Below, one piece after another: positions 10,844 to 23,439 of a DNA stretch of 64,000 nt. Below the pieces are notes generated by a model, which saw only the letters and a program-made list of their open reading frames with translations, was not told the DNA's origin and made no database searches. A program made the translations under genes and the position numbers. The stretch is from Aquimarina aggregata. Lineage in GTDB: Bacteria; Bacteroidota; Bacteroidia; Flavobacteriales; Flavobacteriaceae. The stretch is from NCBI RefSeq assembly GCF_001632745.1, contig NZ_LQRT01000002.1, forward strand, positions 620,001 through 684,000. The letters run 5' to 3'. Position 1 is the first letter of the stretch. Every line of letters starts with the position of its first letter.

Positions 10844-12223
10844 TTACAATGATTTAGTTGTAATCATTCCATTATAACCGGCTATATAAACTATATTTTT
10901 TATTCGAATTATATCTTGTACAAAATTATCAGATTTAAATATTTCTTCTACTTTGTACGATTGTAAATCGACTGTTACTACTTTGTTATCCTCTCCACAA
11001 CTTGTAATACTGTTTTCATAATATATAATCGATCTAATACTATCATCATGAGCTTTTATTTTATAGATGTTCTGAGTGTCTAAAGAAATTTGAATTATAG
11101 TCCCGTCATGGGATCCTACAAAAATCATATTTTTCCTAAGTATGCTTAAACAAAATAAGGGTTGTTTGTTCTTATAGATACATGTGGTTTTTTCTAGCCT
11201 TGTGTTTGTAAAATGTACTGTTCCATCTTCTCCACAAGTAAGAACAGTATCGTTATCTTTAATAGATAATCCCCAAATCCAACCTTTATGAATTTTTATA
11301 GTTTTGATTACAGACAATGCTGTATTTAATAGATATAATTTACCACTGGTTCCAGCCGCAATGATGTTTTTATCTGCGTTAATTTTAATAGTTAAAATCA
11401 TTTCGTCAAGAGTCGTGCTGGCTAGTATTTGACCAGATATACTCCAGCATTTTAAAGTAAAATCTCGTGAACAGGAAATAAACTCGGTGGCAGTAAGACG
11501 TACCACTTTTAAAACTGATTTTGAGTGTATTTTAAGACTCTTTTGTAATTGAAGATTGGTGTCCCATAACTTTATTGAAGTGTCTCGCCCACAACTTAAA
11601 AGTTGATTTTTATTTAACTTAACTAAATTCCAGATATACCCATCATGATGTGTGTTTTTAGTCTGTCTTTTAATGATAATATCGGATCTAAGTATGTATT
11701 TGTTCCCTTTGGTTACTAGTGCTCCCTTATGCCATAGTCGATGATCAAACACAATTAGTTTTCCTTTTTTTGGAACAATAGTTTTGATGGGGTTATTATC
11801 TGTTTTTAGCGTGTAGAAATCCGTGTTTCCTCCTTCGAAACCTTTATTATCATTAAGATAAAGTAAGAAAGTGAATTTGGATTCAGAAAAAGCATCGGGA
11901 TAGTAAATACCATCTTGATGTTTAGAAAACAACTGATCCTTTTGATATTTACAAAACCTAAGCTTTTCATTAAGACCAATACTTTTTGTTTTTGTTTCTT
12001 TATCAAGGATATCAAGTTGCTTTAATTTGTCATACAACATTTCTGATAACTCTGGGTTATCCTCTACAAGACGATCATTATTCCTGTAGTAACTGGGATA
12101 GTGGCTGATTGCTTTTTCAAAATTTAATATTCGTGGGTTTAAAATTTCATTTAACTCTTTGTCTGTCAAAAAGTTTTCAATTTCAATGATTGGTAAGTTA
12201 TTTATCCTTGTAGTGGTATACAT
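10844..12223 (-). CDS. Fe(II)/2-oxoglutarate oxygenase fused to a WD40 propeller
   Basis: Residues 1-185 form a prolyl-4-hydroxylase-type double-stranded beta-helix. The iron ligands H102 and D104 (KHQDG) and H165 (LWHKG) are present, as is a 2OG-binding-type basic residue in YILRSD (R179), so the enzyme should be active. Residues 195-459 are a WD40-like propeller of about six or seven blades, with recurring patterns such as ISCSRDFTLKCWS and LTCGEDGTVHF. WD40 domains bind proteins or peptides, so the fusion suggests a hydroxylase with its own substrate-docking platform. No signal peptide is seen. It is flanked by two Crp-like regulator genes on the same strand, 20 and 72 bases away. I know of no named family with this exact architecture. 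Confidence 0.8.
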   Translation of the reverse strand: MYTTTRINNLPIIEIENFLTDKELNEILNPRILNFEKAISHYPSYYRNNDRLVEDNPELSEMLYDKLKQLDILDKETKTKSIGLNEKLRFCKYQKDQLFSKHQDGIYYPDAFSESKFTFLLYLNDNKGFEGGNTDFYTLKTDNNPIKTIVPKKGKLIVFDHRLWHKGALVTKGNKYILRSDIIIKRQTKNTHHDGYIWNLVKLNKNQLLSCGRDTSIKLWDTNLQLQKSLKIHSKSVLKVVRLTATEFISCSRDFTLKCWSISGQILASTTLDEMILTIKINADKNIIAAGTSGKLYLLNTALSVIKTIKIHKGWIWGLSIKDNDTVLTCGEDGTVHFTNTRLEKTTCIYKNKQPLFCLSILRKNMIFVGSHDGTIIQISLDTQNIYKIKAHDDSIRSIIYYENSITSCGEDNKVVTVDLQSYKVEEIFKSDNFVQDIIRIKNIVYIAGYNGMITTKSL

Positions 12224-16264: not shown

Positions 16265-16681
16265 CTAAGACTTAGAAGGATTTTCGGCTTTAAAGAACGG
16301 TGAAATAAGGCTTTCGAATAATGAAACTTCTTTTACAATTAACTTATAAGCGGCTGTCTCGAGATCCGAATCTAATAGTTTAAAAAAAAGAGTAGTTTTT
16401 CCATTCTGGATATTGATCGTGTCAATAATCAATACCTTAGACTCTTGTTTATCATTTCTAACCACAATAGAATCTCCACTTTTTTTTGAAATATTACTTT
16501 GATTTAGAGTTACTTTAGCAACACTGTTAGTAGTAATTATTACTTTTTGATACTCTGGAATTTTCACCCAAAATATACCAAAAACTAATAATCCAATGAT
16601 AACCAGTGAGATAATCCCCCCATATTTAGATAATCCATTTCGATTTTCTAATACTAATATTTCAAATTTTCTATTAGACAT
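16265..16681 (-). CDS. very short HlyD-like membrane protein of the exporter
   Basis: A 138-residue protein with one membrane segment (residues 20-42) after a short cytoplasmic tail. The pattern around the helix, ending WVKIPEYQKVIITT, is like the N-terminus of HlyD-family adaptors of Bacteroidota peptide exporters (typically ...YPDVVxAxxxITT). The usual 300 residues of coiled coil and lipoyl domain are missing, and only a small beta domain follows. Its start overlaps the ABC transporter stop by eight bases, so it is the transporter's partner. It may be a minimal adaptor that works without a long periplasmic hairpin. The HlyD relation is judged by eye. Confidence 0.6.
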   Translation of the reverse strand: MSNRKFEILVLENRNGLSKYGGIISLVIIGLLVFGIFWVKIPEYQKVIITTNSVAKVTLNQSNISKKSGDSIVVRNDKQESKVLIIDTINIQNGKTTLFFKLLDSDLETAAYKLIVKEVSLFESLISPFFKAENPSKS

Positions 16682-18899
16682 TTTGTTTATTTAATTCAAG
16701 TTGATCTTTTACAAGATTAAAGTAGTATTCTTGCTTGATAACTAAGTCTTTATGTGTACCTACTTCTACTATTTTACCTTTATTCAAAACAACTATTTGA
16801 TCAGCACCCTTAACTGTACTTAATCGATGCGCAATTATTACGGCCGTGCGGTCTTTAATAAATGAATTTATATTTTTCATAATAATTCTTTCATTTTCTG
16901 TGTCCAAAGCACTTGTCGCCTCATCAAAAAACATAAAATCTGGATTTTTGTACACTGCCCGTGCAATTAAAATACGTTGTTTTTGTCCCCCACTAATTCC
17001 GTTACCAGAAGCTCCAATCTTTGTTTTTAGCTTGTTTGGTAATCCTTCAATAAACTCTGTTAAGTTTGCTACTCTTATAGCATATTGTAGTTGTTTTTTA
17101 TCTATTTCTTCATCACTTGTAGCGATATTTCTTTCTATTGTATCCGAGAAAATAAAACCATCCTGCATAACAGTTCCTATTTTACTTCTCCATTCTTTAG
17201 GAGATATGCTTTTCAACCCTTTGTTATCTATAAAAATATCTCCTTCTGAGGGCGTATAAAACTTAAGTAGTAGTTTTATTAATGTTGTTTTTCCGCTACC
17301 ACTTGCTCCAACTATAGCGGTAGTTTTTCCCTTAGGAATGTACAAATTTAAATTATTGAGAATTTGTTGTTGAACTCCATCATACGAATATGAAAGGTTA
17401 ACTAAATGAATACCGTATCGATTATCAAAGTTTTTACTTTTTAGTATCTGTGGACTATTGTCAATTTGCTCTTCTTCTCTTTGAGCATGTACTTCGCTAA
17501 GTCTATTCAAGCTAATTTTTGCATCTTGAAAGGATCTAATAAACTCTATTAATTGATTTAAAGGAGAATTCGTTTGGCCTATTATATATGTTATACTTAG
17601 CATTGCCCCCAAACTTAAATTTCCTAAAATAACTTCTTTGGCTGCAAAATAAGTAACTAGTATATTTTTAAAATGGTTAATAAAAGTATAGCCTGTTGTC
17701 TGATATTGATCTAATTTTAATATTCTAGTACTTATTTTATAAAGTTTTACTTGAAGATCTTCCCATTCATTTCGCTTATGATTTTCAAAATTATTTAATT
17801 TAATTTCTTGCATCCCATTGATCAATTCGTATACTGAGTCTTGGTTTAGAGCTTTACATTGAAATTTAATATAGTCCAATATTTTTCTTTTATTTTGAAA
17901 TATCAAAATCCAGCAAATAGAAACAGAAGTTAGTATAGAAAAAGTTATAAGAATTTTTAAATCATAAATACCTAATACAACAAGAAATACTAAAAGATTA
18001 ATGAGTGAAAAAAGTGTCAGTAAACTTTGTGACGTAAGAAATTCTTCAATTCGTTCATGATCATTAATTCTCTGCGTAAAATCCCCCATCATTTTAGTGT
18101 CAAAAAACTTAATAGGAAGTTTCATTAATTTCATCAAAAAATCGGAAATGATCTTGATATTTACGTGACTTCCTATATATAGGGTAATCCAATTTCTTAT
18201 AATTTCTATTATCGCAGAGCCTAAAAAAAGAAATAACTGGCCAAACAAGATAATTTTTATAATATCTAAACTTTGATCTTTGACACCTCTATCAATTAAT
18301 GCTTGGGTCAAAAAAGGAAAGATTAGTGTAATTAAAGATCCTCCAAAAACTCCTAATAATAATTGAGTTATTTCCCATTGATATGATTTTAAGTATGATA
18401 GAAGGAAAGATGAACTATCATTGGTATCTTTTGATACTGCTTTCTTATTATAAAACTTATCTGTAGTTTCTAGATATAAAATAACCCCTTCATTATTAGC
18501 ATTACACCATTGTTTTTTGAATTCATGCTCACTTAACTTAATGATACCATGTCCAGGGTCGGCTATAATAAATTCATTTTCATTTGAAATCTTTTTCTTT
18601 CTTATTTTATAGAGAACTACAAAATGGTTTTGATTCCAATGTAAAATTGCTGGAGACTTAATCTGGAGCACGAGGTCTTCCAAACCCATCTGTAATGTAA
18701 TTGATTTTAACCCAATAGCATTTGCCGATTTACTTATTCCTAGCAAACTTACCCCATCACGTGTAAGAGAAGAAAGATCTCTTAAGTATTGTAATGAATA
18801 TCTCTTACCGTAATACCTAGCAATCATTTGTAAACATGCCGGACCACAATCCATTTGGTCATGTTGGGGTAAGAATTTAAAATTGCGTCGAAATAACAT
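16674..18899 (-). CDS. C39-peptidase ABC exporter (peptide maturation and export)
   Basis: A 741-residue fusion of three parts. Residues 1-135 are a C39 cysteine peptidase with C18 in QMDCGPACL, H92 in NQNHFVVL and D114 in IADPGHG, so it should be active. Residues 170-450 are a six-helix ABC membrane domain. The C-terminal ATPase has GASGSGKTT, ISGGQKQR and FFDEATSALD. These proteins remove double-glycine leaders and export the core peptide. The 48-residue product of the gene at 20818 carries a matching leader, LSPMDQDKLKGG, so it is the obvious substrate. The gene overlaps the short HlyD-like gene and lies 96 bases downstream of the 116-residue protein gene on the same strand. Confidence 0.93.
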   Translation of the reverse strand: MLFRRNFKFLPQHDQMDCGPACLQMIARYYGKRYSLQYLRDLSSLTRDGVSLLGISKSANAIGLKSITLQMGLEDLVLQIKSPAILHWNQNHFVVLYKIRKKKISNENEFIIADPGHGIIKLSEHEFKKQWCNANNEGVILYLETTDKFYNKKAVSKDTNDSSSFLLSYLKSYQWEITQLLLGVFGGSLITLIFPFLTQALIDRGVKDQSLDIIKIILFGQLFLFLGSAIIEIIRNWITLYIGSHVNIKIISDFLMKLMKLPIKFFDTKMMGDFTQRINDHERIEEFLTSQSLLTLFSLINLLVFLVVLGIYDLKILITFSILTSVSICWILIFQNKRKILDYIKFQCKALNQDSVYELINGMQEIKLNNFENHKRNEWEDLQVKLYKISTRILKLDQYQTTGYTFINHFKNILVTYFAAKEVILGNLSLGAMLSITYIIGQTNSPLNQLIEFIRSFQDAKISLNRLSEVHAQREEEQIDNSPQILKSKNFDNRYGIHLVNLSYSYDGVQQQILNNLNLYIPKGKTTAIVGASGSGKTTLIKLLLKFYTPSEGDIFIDNKGLKSISPKEWRSKIGTVMQDGFIFSDTIERNIATSDEEIDKKQLQYAIRVANLTEFIEGLPNKLKTKIGASGNGISGGQKQRILIARAVYKNPDFMFFDEATSALDTENERIIMKNINSFIKDRTAVIIAHRLSTVKGADQIVVLNKGKIVEVGTHKDLVIKQEYYFNLVKDQLELNKQNV

Positions 18900-18995
18900 T
18901 GGATATGTGCTTTGAATAAAAAATAAAATGCTTTTTAATTAAAAAGGGATTTGAAAATAGACTTAATGAACGTAAATTAATCTACTTATGTACCT

Positions 18996-19346
18996 CTATA
19001 ATTTTAAAATAGAAGCCTCCATTTGATCAAATTTTAATGTGATTTCTTTTTGATCTTCTTCACTAGGATGATCAAACTTATAGTCTAGTTTCAATTCAGA
19101 ACTTTTTAACTCAATGGTAAAGCAATATTGGTTTTCTTGTATTTGGATATAGTATTCATTTATGTAATCACTTGAGTATTCATGATATGCTCTAGTGATG
19201 ATATCTACTATTCTATCCATAAATTTTGAATCGAATGTACATGAAAATGAATATGAATGATTCGTTTTTGATTTAGCATAAACAATATTTGATTTTGTAG
19301 TGTTAGCTTCGGCCAATGGTGCTGGTGGTATAATATTCTTTTCCAT
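18996..19346 (-). CDS. small unknown protein of the peptide locus
   Basis: The 116-residue product starts MEKNIIPPAPLAEANTTKSN and then alternates beta strands and one amphipathic helix (FMDRIVDIITRAYHEYSSDY). There is no signal peptide, membrane segment or double-glycine motif, and I do not recognise it. It lies 62 bases downstream of the oxygenase gene and 96 upstream of the exporter gene, all on one strand, so it likely belongs to the peptide pathway as an accessory, chaperone or immunity protein. The Pro/Ala-rich first 15 residues recall unstructured docking tails, but that is speculative. Confidence 0.65.
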   Translation of the reverse strand: MEKNIIPPAPLAEANTTKSNIVYAKSKTNHSYSFSCTFDSKFMDRIVDIITRAYHEYSSDYINEYYIQIQENQYCFTIELKSSELKLDYKFDHPSEEDQKEITLKFDQMEASILKL

Positions 19347-19408
19347 ATTCTATTAGTTTTAAAAGTTTAAATGGTATGCTAATAATGAATTTATTATATA
19401 TCATGATG

Positions 19409-20695
19409 CTATATTTTTTTAATTCCATTATGTGTATCAAGAAGTGTAAGGATATATATACCAATACTTTCATCCCAATCTTTGTCTAAAATGGAAAGCG
19501 CTTTAGCTACGGTCATTTCTTCTCCTTTATTGATCTCATTAATTAGTTTTTTTATTCCATCATGATTATGAAATACGAGCTTTGTACCTCTTACATAAAT
19601 TAAAAGATTTTCTTTATCTAATGAATCAGAGTACTTGATCTCAAAAGGTTTTTCAAGGATGATACTGTCTTTTTTAGTATATTCAATCTCTTTTTCTTTC
19701 GGAAATGGCCTTGTCCAGAAACCAGAATTACTATACATAGAATATCTATAATCTTTAAATGTTTCTTGTATGAAATCTTTAAATGTTAACTGCGCAAGAT
19801 CTTGAGGTATCTTAAACAACTCAATAGCTTGTTGTGCAGCACTTAAATCATCTATTTCTCTTTTATCAGGAAGCATTGTTTCTGTACATTCGTCTAAATA
19901 TTGATCCACAATAACTTGTAATATTTTTTTTGCCAAATCCCTTTTCATATGGTTATTAAACCACATCGTTAACCCCATAGACAATTCGTCTGATTTACCA
20001 ATATGATATTCATTTGGTGGCATGTAATAGAGATCTCCTTCTTTGAAAGGGTGAACATTTGCCAGTGGTAAGTATTGTTCTACATCTTTATTGTTAAACT
20101 TATGATCACCGGCTTTTTTTTCGTATGTTTTCTTATCCCATGTATACATTGTCTTGTCACCAGGACCAAGATGAAAATGAGTAACGCTCTCTCCTGGAGC
20201 ATCTGTATGTATACCTAATGGTGTCCAACCATAATTACCAATGAATATGGTAAAATTAATTCCCATTAATGGGATGCCTACTTGCGGTAATAGGGGAGAT
20301 ATTTTGTGCGCGATCCTTTGGGCCAACAATTTGTTTATCTTCTCACCTCTATTAATAATCATTCCAAACTTTTTGTTCTTAAAAGTTCGCTTTGTCCAAT
20401 CATTAATAGTTTCCTTTTTTTTAGGAGGTGAATCATAAACCAAATCCATTTCTTTATTATATAATTGTTTACCTTCAACAAATACACGAAACCCAAATTG
20501 ATCGGTTCTTAACTCACAAAGAGTTCTTAAAATATCCATGATCTCTAATCGCATAGCCGCTGTTTCTTGTCTAGAAATACAATCTCTAAAAACAGAAGTT
20601 TTATTAAGCGTATCTGTGTTTTTTAGAAAAGTATTTTTCCACCAATCAGAATCAAACTTTTCTTGCTGTTTTGGTATGTTTTCTTTAACTAACAT
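19409..20695 (-). CDS. JmjC/cupin-type Fe(II)/2OG peptide oxygenase (candidate)
   Basis: A 428-residue soluble protein. Residues 130-250 match the cupin/JmjC fold of ribosomal-oxygenase-like hydroxylases (YcfD, MINA53). Iron ligands H163 and D165 lie in GIHTDAPG, the third histidine H231 in the GDLYYMPPNEYHIG stretch, and a lysine/threonine pair in DKTMYTWDKK can hold 2-oxoglutarate. Relatives hydroxylate arginine or histidine side chains in proteins. The C-terminal 80 residues (LLIYVRGTKLVFHNHDGI onward) look like a small winged helix, as in YcfD, which might bind the leader peptide. It follows the 48-residue precursor gene by 122 bases, so the precursor is the likely substrate. The substrate is inference; the fold and ligands are visible. 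Confidence 0.75.
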   Translation of the reverse strand: MLVKENIPKQQEKFDSDWWKNTFLKNTDTLNKTSVFRDCISRQETAAMRLEIMDILRTLCELRTDQFGFRVFVEGKQLYNKEMDLVYDSPPKKKETINDWTKRTFKNKKFGMIINRGEKINKLLAQRIAHKISPLLPQVGIPLMGINFTIFIGNYGWTPLGIHTDAPGESVTHFHLGPGDKTMYTWDKKTYEKKAGDHKFNNKDVEQYLPLANVHPFKEGDLYYMPPNEYHIGKSDELSMGLTMWFNNHMKRDLAKKILQVIVDQYLDECTETMLPDKREIDDLSAAQQAIELFKIPQDLAQLTFKDFIQETFKDYRYSMYSNSGFWTRPFPKEKEIEYTKKDSIILEKPFEIKYSDSLDKENLLIYVRGTKLVFHNHDGIKKLINEINKGEEMTVAKALSILDKDWDESIGIYILTLLDTHNGIKKI

Positions 20696-20777
20696 TATTT
20701 ATTTATTTTAGCGTTATATGCAGGTACTATAGCAATTGTTTTAAGCACTCAATTTTAGTACCTGTACTATTTTAGTT

Positions 20778-20807
20778 GAAGAAAGAGAGAATTCTCTCTC
20801 TTTCTTC
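20778..20807 (-). terminator. strong stem-loop just after the precursor gene
   Basis: A perfect 13-base-pair inverted repeat (GAAGAAAGAGAGA and its complement) with a four-base loop starts ten bases beyond the stop codon of the 48-residue peptide gene, read on the minus strand. The sequence after it is only moderately U-rich, so it may be a partial terminator or an mRNA 3'-end stabiliser. Either would raise peptide output relative to the downstream modification and export genes, as is usual for RiPP precursors. Confidence 0.75.
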
Positions 20808-20817
20808 TTTACTAGCC

Positions 20818-20964
20818 TTAAACAGCAACTTGCTGTTGTTGTTGCTGTTGTTGTTGCTGTCCTCCTGTACGAGTAACGAACCCACCTTTTAATTTGTCTT
20901 GATCCATTGGTGAAAGTACTTTAGCTCCTAAAAATTCTGCTGGACTTTTTTTAACGTTTTTCAT
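20818..20964 (-). CDS. RiPP precursor peptide with double-glycine leader and poly-Gln core
   Basis: A 48-codon gene too short for most gene callers. The leader MKNVKKSPAEFLGAKVLSPM is followed by DQDKLKGG. The last 12 leader residues, LSPMDQDKLKGG, fit the double-glycine consensus (Leu -12, Ser -11, acidic -8, Leu -4, Gly-Gly) cut by C39 peptidases. The predicted core has 20 residues: FVTRTGG, ten glutamines, then VAV. The glutamines are written as a regular CAG/CAA mix. The gene lies 81 bases downstream of the outer-membrane receptor gene and upstream of the oxygenase and C39 exporter genes, on the same strand, and is followed by a strong stem-loop. The core has no Cys, and only two Thr, so lanthipeptide chemistry is unlikely. 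Confidence 0.85.
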   Translation of the reverse strand: MKNVKKSPAEFLGAKVLSPMDQDKLKGGFVTRTGGQQQQQQQQQQVAV

Positions 20965-21045
20965 TTTAGTAAAAATTTAAATAATTTGTTTCCTACTCTT
21001 TTTAAGGTTTTTCGGATTCCACCTCATTACTGCGCAATAATATTT

Positions 21046-23439
21046 TTAAGTAGATCTATTTTTTGCATTTTGACTACTCCGATTGTACTTCACATTTTTG
21101 GTCTTATTACCTTTTGAGAAGTCATATCGTATAGAAAAATTAAGAGCTCTACTAAAATTGTTTCTATTTTGTATTGTTTGAATTCTTTGTTGGGTATTTG
21201 TAAATTGATATCTCAGCCTATCAAAAGGATCGACTATCTGTAGATAAAAAGATAAGCTGTTTGTGATTTTTTTAGACAGATCTATATAAAATGCATAATT
21301 CTCGCCAGATTCGAATTGTCCGTAGGTTTCAGGACCGTTATATTGAAATGAAATTTCGGTAGTAATCTGAGATGGAAGTTTGAATGCAGTAGCTATACGG
21401 GTTTGAATTGTACCTTTAGAAGTCTCAATATTTTCTACTGCATCTTCAAAAGTAGAAATGTATTTCTTGCCGTACCAAGAAGAGCTAGCAAAAAATGTCC
21501 ACCAATTGGTTAGTTTACGATTATATGATAATGAAATACCATAGATTGAAGTTTTTTCGATATTTCTCCATTGATATTGTAATTCAGTATTGGATAATTG
21601 TGTCAAGATTTCCCGTGGTTCTCCTTTAATATCATTAAAATATAATTGAAGATTTAAATTAGACGAATTATAATTTAACTCTAAAGCATTGGTATATGAA
21701 GGATTTAGATCTGGGTTTCCTACTTGTGAGGTAAAATCTGTTAGATAAAAAATAGTTGGGTTGAATAATCTATAATTAGGTCTGTTTATTCTTCTGGAAA
21801 TCGAAAAACCAATACTTGATTTATCTTTTAATGGTTTGGAAATAAATAAGCTAGGAAATACATCAAAGTAATTTTTATTTAAGGTAAACTCTGTAGCTAA
21901 AATTTCACCATTTCCTTTGGTATATTCACCCCTAAATCCAATTTGTAGGTTTAGTTTAGAATCGAATATATTTTCTGCAGCAAAAGAACTGTATAGTGCA
22001 ATGATTTGTTCGTCATAATCAAACTTATTCGAGAAATTTTCATCTCTTATATATATCCCATTAATTAGATTTTCAAAAATAGAGTTACTTTGACTTTTGA
22101 CATATCCATATTTTGCGCCAATTTCTAAGTTTTGTTTGTTAGTAATAGGCTTTTGATAATCTATTTGAGACGAAATAATATTAAATGATGATAATGCACT
22201 TGATCTTCTAGTATTCGAATTTATAAGTGCTGTATTCGAATCGAAAAACAGGTTTAAATAATCATTGTCGCTACTGTTTTCAGAAGTATAATAATCAAAA
22301 ATCGTCTTTAAATTTTGCCCTAGAGAATCAATAGTTTTGTTATAATTAATTCCAAACGCAGAAGAATTATTTTTTCCAAGATTAGAATATAATCCATTCG
22401 ATTGTATTGCTTGATCATCTGTTATTATTAGGTCATTATTCTGTGATCTATTAAAGTCCTTATCAAAGATTCTGTATTGTAAGATAACTTGATCATTATC
22501 TGAAAAATCGTATTGTAAATCAAAATTAGCAAGTCTATCTATGCTTTTTGTACTGTCTATTTTTTCATATTCATAAATAGTTTTCGGGAGGGAAATAGTT
22601 TCGACTCTATTTTCGTCTGTTCTATATTCATTTTGTTGATAATACAGATAAGAGTTTAGAGATAGTTTTTTAGTTATTTTAGAGTTTAATTGCAATGAAG
22701 TTCCGTAACTTAATAATTTAGAGAAATTTAACATCGAATTTACAGATCCACTTACTCCTTTAGTATTGGAGGTTTTAGTAATAATATTAATGATACCCCC
22801 TTGACCTTCGGCATCATATCTAGCAGAAGGATTAGATATGATTTCAATAGATTTTAGTTGTTTCTCGGATAATGTATTTAGATAGTTCATTAAACTTTCT
22901 CTAGACATATTCGTTTTTTTTCCATTGATTAATATAATAGCGGATACGCCTTTTAAATTGATTTCATTACTACTTTGATCGACCCAAACATTTGGAGCAT
23001 ATTTTAGTATTTCTGTTAGATTCTTGCCTTTGGTGAGGATATTACTCCCAAGATTCATTAGTATTTTGTCCCCTTTTCGTATTATCAATTCTTTATTGGC
23101 GGTAACAAGGACTTCTTCTAGTTCTGTTTTATCTTCTTTAAGAATGATTACTCCTAAGTTTTGTCCTGTAGTATAAAAATTAGGAGAAACCCATGCTTTG
23201 TATCCTATGAAGCTTATAGTAATGTAAAAGGGTTTTTCTGCATTAATTAATAAGGAAAAACGCCCTTCATCATCTGTAATTGTTCCCTTGATAAGTGCAT
23301 TATTATCAACATATTGTGCCGTTACATTACTATAGGCAATAGGCTTATTTAAAGAGTTGACAACGCGACCCTTAAAATTTTGAGAGAAAATTATTTGAGT
23401 TCCTAACAAGAAAATTAAACCGATAATAAGATTTTTCAT
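21046..23439 (-). CDS. outer-membrane beta-barrel receptor with carboxypeptidase-like N-domain
   Basis: A 797-residue protein with a signal peptide (residues 1-19, cleaved near IIFSQ). An N-terminal carboxypeptidase-regulatory-like domain (residues 22-105, FKGRVVNSLNKPIAYSNVT) is followed by a TonB-dependent plug-like region (about 110-220, INLKGVSAIILINGKKTN) and a large beta-barrel. It belongs to the OMP_b-brl_3 type of SusC/TonB-receptor relatives. Homologues often accompany peptide exporters in Bacteroidota. It is the first gene of the peptide operon, 81 bases before the precursor gene, so it may carry the peptide across the outer membrane or take up a related ligand. The direction of transport is not evident. 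Confidence 0.85.
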   Translation of the reverse strand: MKNLIIGLIFLLGTQIIFSQNFKGRVVNSLNKPIAYSNVTAQYVDNNALIKGTITDDEGRFSLLINAEKPFYITISFIGYKAWVSPNFYTTGQNLGVIILKEDKTELEEVLVTANKELIIRKGDKILMNLGSNILTKGKNLTEILKYAPNVWVDQSSNEINLKGVSAIILINGKKTNMSRESLMNYLNTLSEKQLKSIEIISNPSARYDAEGQGGIINIITKTSNTKGVSGSVNSMLNFSKLLSYGTSLQLNSKITKKLSLNSYLYYQQNEYRTDENRVETISLPKTIYEYEKIDSTKSIDRLANFDLQYDFSDNDQVILQYRIFDKDFNRSQNNDLIITDDQAIQSNGLYSNLGKNNSSAFGINYNKTIDSLGQNLKTIFDYYTSENSSDNDYLNLFFDSNTALINSNTRRSSALSSFNIISSQIDYQKPITNKQNLEIGAKYGYVKSQSNSIFENLINGIYIRDENFSNKFDYDEQIIALYSSFAAENIFDSKLNLQIGFRGEYTKGNGEILATEFTLNKNYFDVFPSLFISKPLKDKSSIGFSISRRINRPNYRLFNPTIFYLTDFTSQVGNPDLNPSYTNALELNYNSSNLNLQLYFNDIKGEPREILTQLSNTELQYQWRNIEKTSIYGISLSYNRKLTNWWTFFASSSWYGKKYISTFEDAVENIETSKGTIQTRIATAFKLPSQITTEISFQYNGPETYGQFESGENYAFYIDLSKKITNSLSFYLQIVDPFDRLRYQFTNTQQRIQTIQNRNNFSRALNFSIRYDFSKGNKTKNVKYNRSSQNAKNRST

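Follow-up and report, generated by a model that had tools for sequence, protein, structure and literature searches.

What is made by a locus that encodes a short peptide containing ten consecutive glutamines next to an oxygenase and an exporter, and is this set of genes more than a chance neighbourhood? The question is raised by a stretch of 64,000 nucleotides from Aquimarina aggregata (contig NZ_LQRT01000002.1, positions 620,001 to 684,000), referred to in full as the window. An initial annotation, made from the sequence alone, had proposed a candidate locus for a ribosomally synthesised and post-translationally modified peptide (RiPP) on one strand of the window, with an outer-membrane receptor, a precursor of 48 amino acids (aa), an oxygenase, a small protein and an exporter with a C39 peptidase domain. 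All of these frames were located at the positions given for them, on the minus strand between 23439 and 16265, and co-location and co-occurrence in other genomes support the interpretation as a whole. The genes probably constitute a biosynthesis-and-export cassette for a peptide that is ribosomally made, hydroxylated by the oxygenase and exported. Judged from sequence comparison, such cassettes look like a candidate, unrecognised class of modified secreted peptides. The window cassette has the following parts:

21046..23439, minus strand: outer-membrane beta-barrel / TonB-dependent-receptor-like protein P0006, 797 aa (Pfam OMP_b-brl_3, E 1.9e-80)
20990..21025, minus strand: DUF805b structured RNA (RF02914), part of the 5' leader of the precursor gene (47.9 bits, cut-off 35.6)
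20818..20964, minus strand: putative precursor peptide P0001, 48 aa, from translation; the leader extends to Gly-Gly (residues 27-28)
20777..20808 (approximate limits), minus strand: strong stem-loop in the gap between precursor and oxygenase genes, from folding against shuffles
19409..20695, minus strand: predicted JmjC/YcfD-type 2-oxoglutarate (2OG) oxygenase P0002, 428 aa, from a structure model, Foldseek, H163-x-D165...H231 and a C-terminal winged-helix-like domain
18996..19346, minus strand: putative small accessory protein P0003, 116 aa, from alignment and model; no family above cut-off
16674..18899, minus strand: C39-peptidase ATP-binding cassette (ABC) exporter P0004, 741 aa (Pfam Peptidase_C39, E 2.1e-35; ABC_tran; ABC_membrane)
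16265..16681, minus strand: short membrane-anchored protein P0005, 138 aa, with a homologue in the Kordia locus L110

The window precursor is composed of the leader MKNVKKSPAEFLGAKVLSPMDQDKLKGG and the core FVTRTGG-Q10-VAV. The C39 domain of P0004 had been described as having an intact Cys/His/Asp set, and the motifs DCGPA, HWNQNHF and DPGHG were indeed found; we take their Cys, His and Asp to be its catalytic residues.

Recurrence of Precursor, Oxygenase and Exporter

The cassette is a conserved system, as far as sequence can tell, and the set is more than chance because it recurs in other loci (designated L below). A second copy in the window's own genome includes a receptor, a leader peptide, a C39 exporter and an oxygenase that is 35% identical; its precursor reads MKNQKFDVKGFLNVKTLSPLEETQVKGG-TDKVKVKVKVKIKAAA, with the core KVKVKVKIK. 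The same genes are present in Kordia algicida (L110), where the oxygenase is 66% and the exporter 75% identical, and where two of the three Gln-containing precursors show 73% and 78% identity to that of the window.

The distribution of the oxygenase is patchy. It was found in 9 of 52 genomes of the genus (one match weak, E 5e-6) and in 7 of 299 genomes of the family, the window's own genome being included in these and in the next three counts. At E<=1e-3, 19 of 395 genomes of the order had it (11 strong matches, E<=1e-90, and 8 marginal ones), and at E<=1e-20 two of 395 genomes of the class and two of 247 of the phylum; up to four first-look candidates per genome were scored for order and class and up to seven for the phylum, misses are possible, and the genomes overlap between searches. 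A second, related genus (g240) had the oxygenase in 12 of 148 genomes.

A leader profile was built from nine first-round leaders and applied to 21 new loci that had been fetched by the oxygenase alone. L068 contained no oxygenase frame; 16 of the other 20 had both a leader and a C39 exporter, and the profile detected no leader in L065, L066, L067 and L069. Searching for homologues of the 428-residue protein and for short frames close to them, as the initial annotation had proposed, thus uncovered conserved double-glycine leaders: across 37 scripted loci, the window included, 27 leader hits with E<=5e-6 all lay on the oxygenase strand and within 922 bp, and two further hits (E 0.85-0.96) were located elsewhere. 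The window precursor matched with E 4.4e-16, its own leader being part of the profile. In a scan of named genomes, 37 loci contained a leader in 34 cases, a C39 exporter in 32, a barrel within 6 kb of the oxygenase in 24 and a P0003 homologue in 13; leader, exporter and barrel occurred together in 21. The named loci without a leader were L112, L141 and L145. L112 stems from the same genome as L028, in which a leader is seen ahead of an assembly gap in the Q run, the contig of L141 starts at the oxygenase, and that of L145 is only 4.1 kb long.

The search was also run with the leader alone. In the genus, it gave six matches in 5 of 47 genomes, each beside an oxygenase; the diverged leader of L021 (genome G012), seen by the script, was below the threshold of this search, and no leader accompanies the oxygenase homologues of G035 and G045. 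In the second genus, a leader was present in 12 of 148 genomes, and these were the very 12 that had the oxygenase. The leader model contains leaders from several of the genomes searched, and recovery of those is not independent; that no leader without an oxygenase was found in the remaining genomes of the 148 and 47 is independent of the make-up of the model. Two outcomes had been named as speaking against the proposal, namely oxygenase homologues that never lie near double-glycine precursors or C39 exporters, and a precursor that is lost while the oxygenase stays. What we found was repeated co-location (16 of 20 new loci) and a matching set of genomes (12 of 148). These comparisons show that the predicted precursor, oxygenase and C39 exporter recur together as a unit, in which leader and oxygenase co-occur genome by genome. 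As expected for a RiPP, the putative precursor is gene-encoded, with a conserved leader ending in GG, a variable core and an adjacent oxygenase.

Predicted Structure of the Oxygenase

The AlphaFold2 model of P0002, built from 15 relatives, had a mean predicted local distance difference test score (pLDDT) of 89.6. Foldseek against PDB returned MINA53 (the best match, E 3.8e-13), Rhodothermus YcfD, E. coli YcfD and NO66 as the top four, followed by B. subtilis YxbC and, lower, FIH. All 11 cassette-linked rows of alignment A2 retain H163, D165 and H231; this, together with the MINA53, YcfD and NO66 matches, bears out the HxD...H ligands of ribosomal-oxygenase cupins noted at the outset. P0002 is therefore predicted to have the double-stranded beta-helix fold and the HxD/E...H metal site of the JmjC / ribosomal oxygenase family. 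It resembles YcfD, MINA53, NO66 and YxbC in its predicted fold, in HxD...H and in the C-terminal winged-helix-like domain, but differs from the ribosomal oxygenases in its sequence (12-15% identity), its patchy distribution and its place beside double-glycine precursors and C39 exporters. This genomic context points to the precursor, and not a ribosomal protein, as the probable substrate.

Sequence searches were less informative. The Pfam family JmjC_2 was matched at E<=0.01 by 5 of the 11 members of A2. NCBIfam contained no match for P0002 or the precursor, and the single match among the 11 oxygenases was implausible. A PDB sequence search with P0002 gave three chance-like matches, and a profile search had JMJD5 as best match (E 0.008-0.05) and YxbC at 0.022. 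A C-terminal winged helix is also present in YcfD-type enzymes. In the model of P0002, residues 344-421 form four strands followed by three helices, an order that, in the accessible part of PMC12710340, is used for defining RiPP recognition elements; the same part places the closest bacterial homologues of certain JmjC-fused proteins resembling these elements in RiPP-like contexts.

Core Types and the Oxygenase Tree

The poly-glutamine core of the initial annotation is present in the window as Q10, but the class is much wider: besides Gln (Qn), the cores consist of Val/Thr (TVTV), Lys/Val (KVKV), Lys/Glu (EKEK) or His/Asp (HHHDHD) repeats. Gln runs of 7 to 18 occur in the window, in Kordia, Altibacter, a Flavobacteriales metagenome-assembled genome, Chryseobacterium and Riemerella and on a Bergeyella plasmid, and the Gln core of Chromobacterium is QQEQQQQQQD. 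Further cores are TVTVTVTVTVTVTVTT, KVKVKVKIK, KEKEKEKEKEK, VVVQQVRQQVVQQ, HHHDGRHHHD and KCKCKCKCK; a few are non-repetitive (L021/L139 and the middle Kordia precursor). Over 49 distinct cores the mean entropy was 2.78 bits, compared to 3.43 bits (standard deviation 0.25) in segments of equal length from the large proteins of the same loci, which marks the cores as low in complexity.

In a tree of 48 oxygenases (an earlier tree had 38 rows), seven core labels required 9 changes, compared to a mean of 29.4 for shuffled labels, and none of 200 shuffles was as low. This shows that the lineage of the predicted oxygenase predicts the core type, and since core type follows the tree, the core is very probably the part on which the enzyme acts. 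The six Q enzymes from Bacteroidota group in a single clade (94/88) next to those with H cores. The Chromobacterium Q enzyme branches off within the H group, which suggests at least two origins of Gln cores. In Chryseobacterium, the genes of two Q precursors show six base differences, four of them within the Q run; because all six are synonymous, the run is preserved at the protein level and not just as a repeat in the DNA.

Which residue of the window core would be modified? Of the two targets suggested initially, the Arg or the Gln run, only the latter is common to the Q cores. Hydroxylation at the Arg of FVTRTGG, with the Gln run serving as a spacer, is very improbable. In its favour, an Arg of L16 is the target of YcfD, according to a PDB title, and L027 (IRHTS) and L063 (NRLE) also have an Arg ahead of the Q run. 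However, the segment from the leader to the Q run has no Arg in L058 (TACAY-Q12), in L087 and L088 (YQE-Q13), in the Kordia core that comes first (LKTD-Q12) and in L177 (Y-Q18). Arg as the common target was therefore dropped, and Gln is the likelier one. We also looked for single residues that separate the oxygenases of Q cores from the others (6 Q rows, 24 others) and discarded this approach; the filter left a single position, 39 (Cys), which lies in the N-terminal part.

In two loci, L132 (5987-7004) and L138 (6102-6966), five to six precursors are arranged in tandem, with similar leaders and different Lys/Glu-rich cores, one of them KCKCKCKCK.

Possible Alternative Functions of the Oxygenase

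Several points weigh against a cassette in which the oxygenase modifies the precursor. The query for the 37 named loci was built from cassette-linked enzymes and favours them, so these loci are a biased sample of the oxygenase family, and some stem from the same genomes as earlier loci. Five of them have no C39 exporter nearby (L117, L124, L125, L139, L145; two on short contigs). The core classes behind the nine changes in the tree were labelled by eye, and related rows are not independent. Foldseek TM-scores (template modelling scores) of the top four were modest, 0.39-0.54 at the identity of 12-15%, and P0002 scored 14.7 bits (E 0.023) against JmjC_2 (PF08007), short of the cut-off of 22. 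Ten related oxygenases are leaderless (L024, L025, L026, L030, L031, L032, L065, L066, L067, L069). Among them L024, L025, L030, L031, L065 and L066 have HxE instead of HxD and are separate in the tree, where L067 (HxD) groups with them. Finally, the tie between leader and oxygenase could reflect shared inheritance of the cassette.

The leaderless relatives imply other jobs within the family, and C39 exporters also handle unmodified peptides. The precursor could then be an unmodified double-glycine peptide, similar to a microcin or a pheromone, with the oxygenase acting on the receptor, the exporter or a ribosomal protein. We regard this as improbable: core type tracks the oxygenase lineage, a leader without oxygenase was absent from the 148 and 47 genomes, and L132 and L138 carry at least five tandem precursors directly before one oxygenase, with the first receptor or exporter located elsewhere.

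If the oxygenase acts on the core, its reaction could be other than hydroxylation, since co-occurrence and co-variation of core and enzyme leave the chemistry unfixed. Desaturation, cross-linking, macrocyclisation of side chains or backbone oxidation would all be conceivable, and macrocyclisation catalysed by a 2OG dioxygenase in RiPPs is reportedly the subject of a 2025 paper, to go by its title. Such a reaction is nevertheless unlikely here, although less so than an unmodified peptide. The folds closest to that of P0002 (MINA53, YcfD and NO66) belong to enzymes that hydroxylate side chains, and hydroxylation is also the reaction of BipG and PbsQ, two JmjC enzymes of RiPP pathways, as stated in the accessible parts of PMC12707348 and PMC12257519.

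Proposed Pathway and Known Systems

For hydroxylation and export, the following order of events may be envisaged. The oxygenase would recognise the leader of the FLGxKxLSPLExxKxxGG type, perhaps through its C-terminal winged helix, and, with Fe(II), O2 and 2-oxoglutarate, would add hydroxyl groups to side chains that recur along the core; in the window these would be the ten glutamines. Ribosomal oxygenases hydroxylate at the beta carbon, and our guess is that the same position is used here. The C39 domain would then cut after Gly-Gly, and the ABC part would export a 20-residue peptide. The neighbouring barrel might be the receptor of the peptide or its outer-membrane gate, P0003 a periplasmic accessory or immunity factor, and the product, as a guess, an interbacterial or signalling peptide that acts via its own receptor. 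More tentatively, and with slightly less than even confidence, we suggest that a relative of the ribosomal oxygenases defines the class and works repeatedly along low-complexity cores, with lineages retuned to Gln, His/Asp, Val/Thr/Lys or Lys/Glu, and that the product of the window is poly-hydroxyglutamine.

Double-glycine microcins and class II bacteriocins share the Gly-Gly leader and the C39-ABC exporter, but the cassette differs from them by a dedicated oxygenase and a low-complexity core. The itf cluster of Bacteroidota combines a C39-peptidase ABC transporter, a TonB-dependent transporter and a precursor as the cassette does, but in the accessible part of that report modification is assigned to a radical SAM enzyme and a YcaO-like protein (PMC11002830). 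Biphenomycin-type pathways likewise pair a RiPP precursor with a JmjC/cupin-like 2OG enzyme: the JmjC ornithine hydroxylases BipG, BpmG and PbsQ act on such precursors (PMC12707348, PMC12257519, as far as their accessible parts go). According to the same parts, the JmjC enzyme is one of several there, together with MNIO, arginase, B12-radical SAM and a TldD-type protease; none of these was seen in the scanned neighbourhood of the window, and the cores of the cassettes are repeats. The principle is thus not new, since JmjC hydroxylation of a RiPP (at ornithine) is known and PMC12710340, in its accessible part, hints at RiPP-like contexts. In the literature searched, mostly titles and the openings of abstracts, we did not find a class with a JmjC oxygenase as main modifier on repeat cores.

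If this interpretation is true, it adds a RiPP class that is unnamed in the Pfam and NCBIfam libraries searched, and poly-hydroxyglutamine would be a chemically new kind of secreted bacterial peptide. The pairs of enzyme and core would represent a natural series, in which one hydroxylase fold apparently shifts its side-chain specificity on simple repeats, and a direct route to how JmjC hydroxylases choose residues. Another question is what purpose the secretion of Gln runs, (TV)n, (KV)n or HHHDHD peptides would have for bacteria, in many cases from a cassette that includes its own outer-membrane barrel. The leader and oxygenase profiles ease the discovery of more members.

Other Proteins of the Window and of Related Loci

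Among 20 window proteins scanned with Pfam we found no lanthionine, ATP-grasp, radical-SAM, YcaO or MNIO enzyme and no LanB/C/M, arginase or B12-radical SAM protein. The claim that lanthionine, graspetide and radical-SAM enzymes are missing thus stands, and a cupin oxygenase as the only modifier would fit the window, but not every relative. Several loci have two or three oxygenases (e.g., L061, L114, L117, L118, L119, L124, L127, L144), and a weak SPASM match lies near L023, the only one of the other loci with a radical-SAM-type signal. A ThiF-family protein occurs together with an unclassified protein of 218-228 aa in L019 (13235-15591), L029 (6822-9219) and L059 (10896-13164). A LuxR-type regulator was seen at L059 and L061. 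About 4 kb past the window cassette (10844-12223, minus strand), a 2OG-Fe(II) oxygenase domain fused to WD40 repeats is encoded between two cNMP-binding regulators.

The precursor, P0003 and P0005 had nothing above the cut-offs of Pfam and NCBIfam. P0005 had been called HlyD-like; neither library gave a HlyD match for it, only weak ones below cut-off, and with both libraries no HlyD-family protein was found among the products of the cassette. Kordia L110 alone among the loci examined has a homologue of P0005 (36% identity). The model of P0003 (pLDDT 83.7) has the topology beta-beta-alpha-beta-beta-beta-alpha, and a fold search against PDB gave no match at E<=0.001. Its homologues in L087, L132 and L136 start with an apparent signal peptide or lipobox. 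A role specific for Gln cores was ruled out for P0003, as a profile finds it in L119, L123, L132, L136, L138, L143 and L144.

Asp_Arg_Hydrox proteins (PF05118) are encoded close to the leaderless relatives L025, L030 and L032, hinting at a different hydroxylation pathway. In the betaproteobacterium Chromobacterium vaccinii (L124, 1476-8260), an H-rich core is accompanied by two oxygenases and a Gln core by one; no C39 exporter match was present within the 15-kb locus. This cassette has probably moved between phyla.

A first contig scan with P0002 alone gave 8 stretches and a scan of viral contigs 30, none of which was confirmed; the precursor had no match in phage records, and PHROGs gave none. 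The plasmid search gave 31 records, the best 20 being mostly Streptomyces cupin proteins with 22-27% identity. The best plasmid record (H1), NZ_CP136427.1 from Bergeyella porcorum (L177), encodes a Q18 precursor and a P0003-like protein, and its oxygenase region is annotated as several short frames.

RNA Elements Next to the Precursor Genes

The strong stem-loop noted initially after the window precursor was verified: the region 20690-20830 folded with a z-score of -4.1, and none of 200 shuffles was as stable. It is not a canonical intrinsic terminator, since no T run follows it on the coding strand. Inverted repeats are also present 3' of the Kordia Q precursors, as seen by reading the sequence.

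The DUF805b RNA, absent from the initial annotation, lies 25 nt upstream of the start of the window precursor. It also precedes the Q precursors of L110 (twice), L111, L113 and L115, and was below cut-off in L116, L114, L118, L124, L127 and ten other loci. With 14 matches in the window's genome and 28 of 36 relatives over the cut-off, the element is widespread in the genus, and a role specific for this class was ruled out. In Flavobacteriales it is often found just upstream of short double-glycine peptide genes (L147-L173, L176). Of 30 fetched elements 28 were examined; by a loose rule, the first downstream frame was small and GG-containing in 15, at least one of which (L147) is rather a secreted protein, and other DUF805b elements precede secreted or membrane proteins.

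A second 5' element, AGACC...ATGTCT.TAAACT, is located about 95 nt upstream of Val- and Lys/Glu-type precursors, often after CTTGCAAG, in L140, L126, L135, L129, L146, L128, L130, L134, L137, L136, L138, L132 and L019. It had no Rfam match above cut-off. Its pseudoknot-like pairing, tested on 15 rows after two near-copies were dropped, scored higher than shuffled arms, with 3 exceptions among 2000 shuffles.

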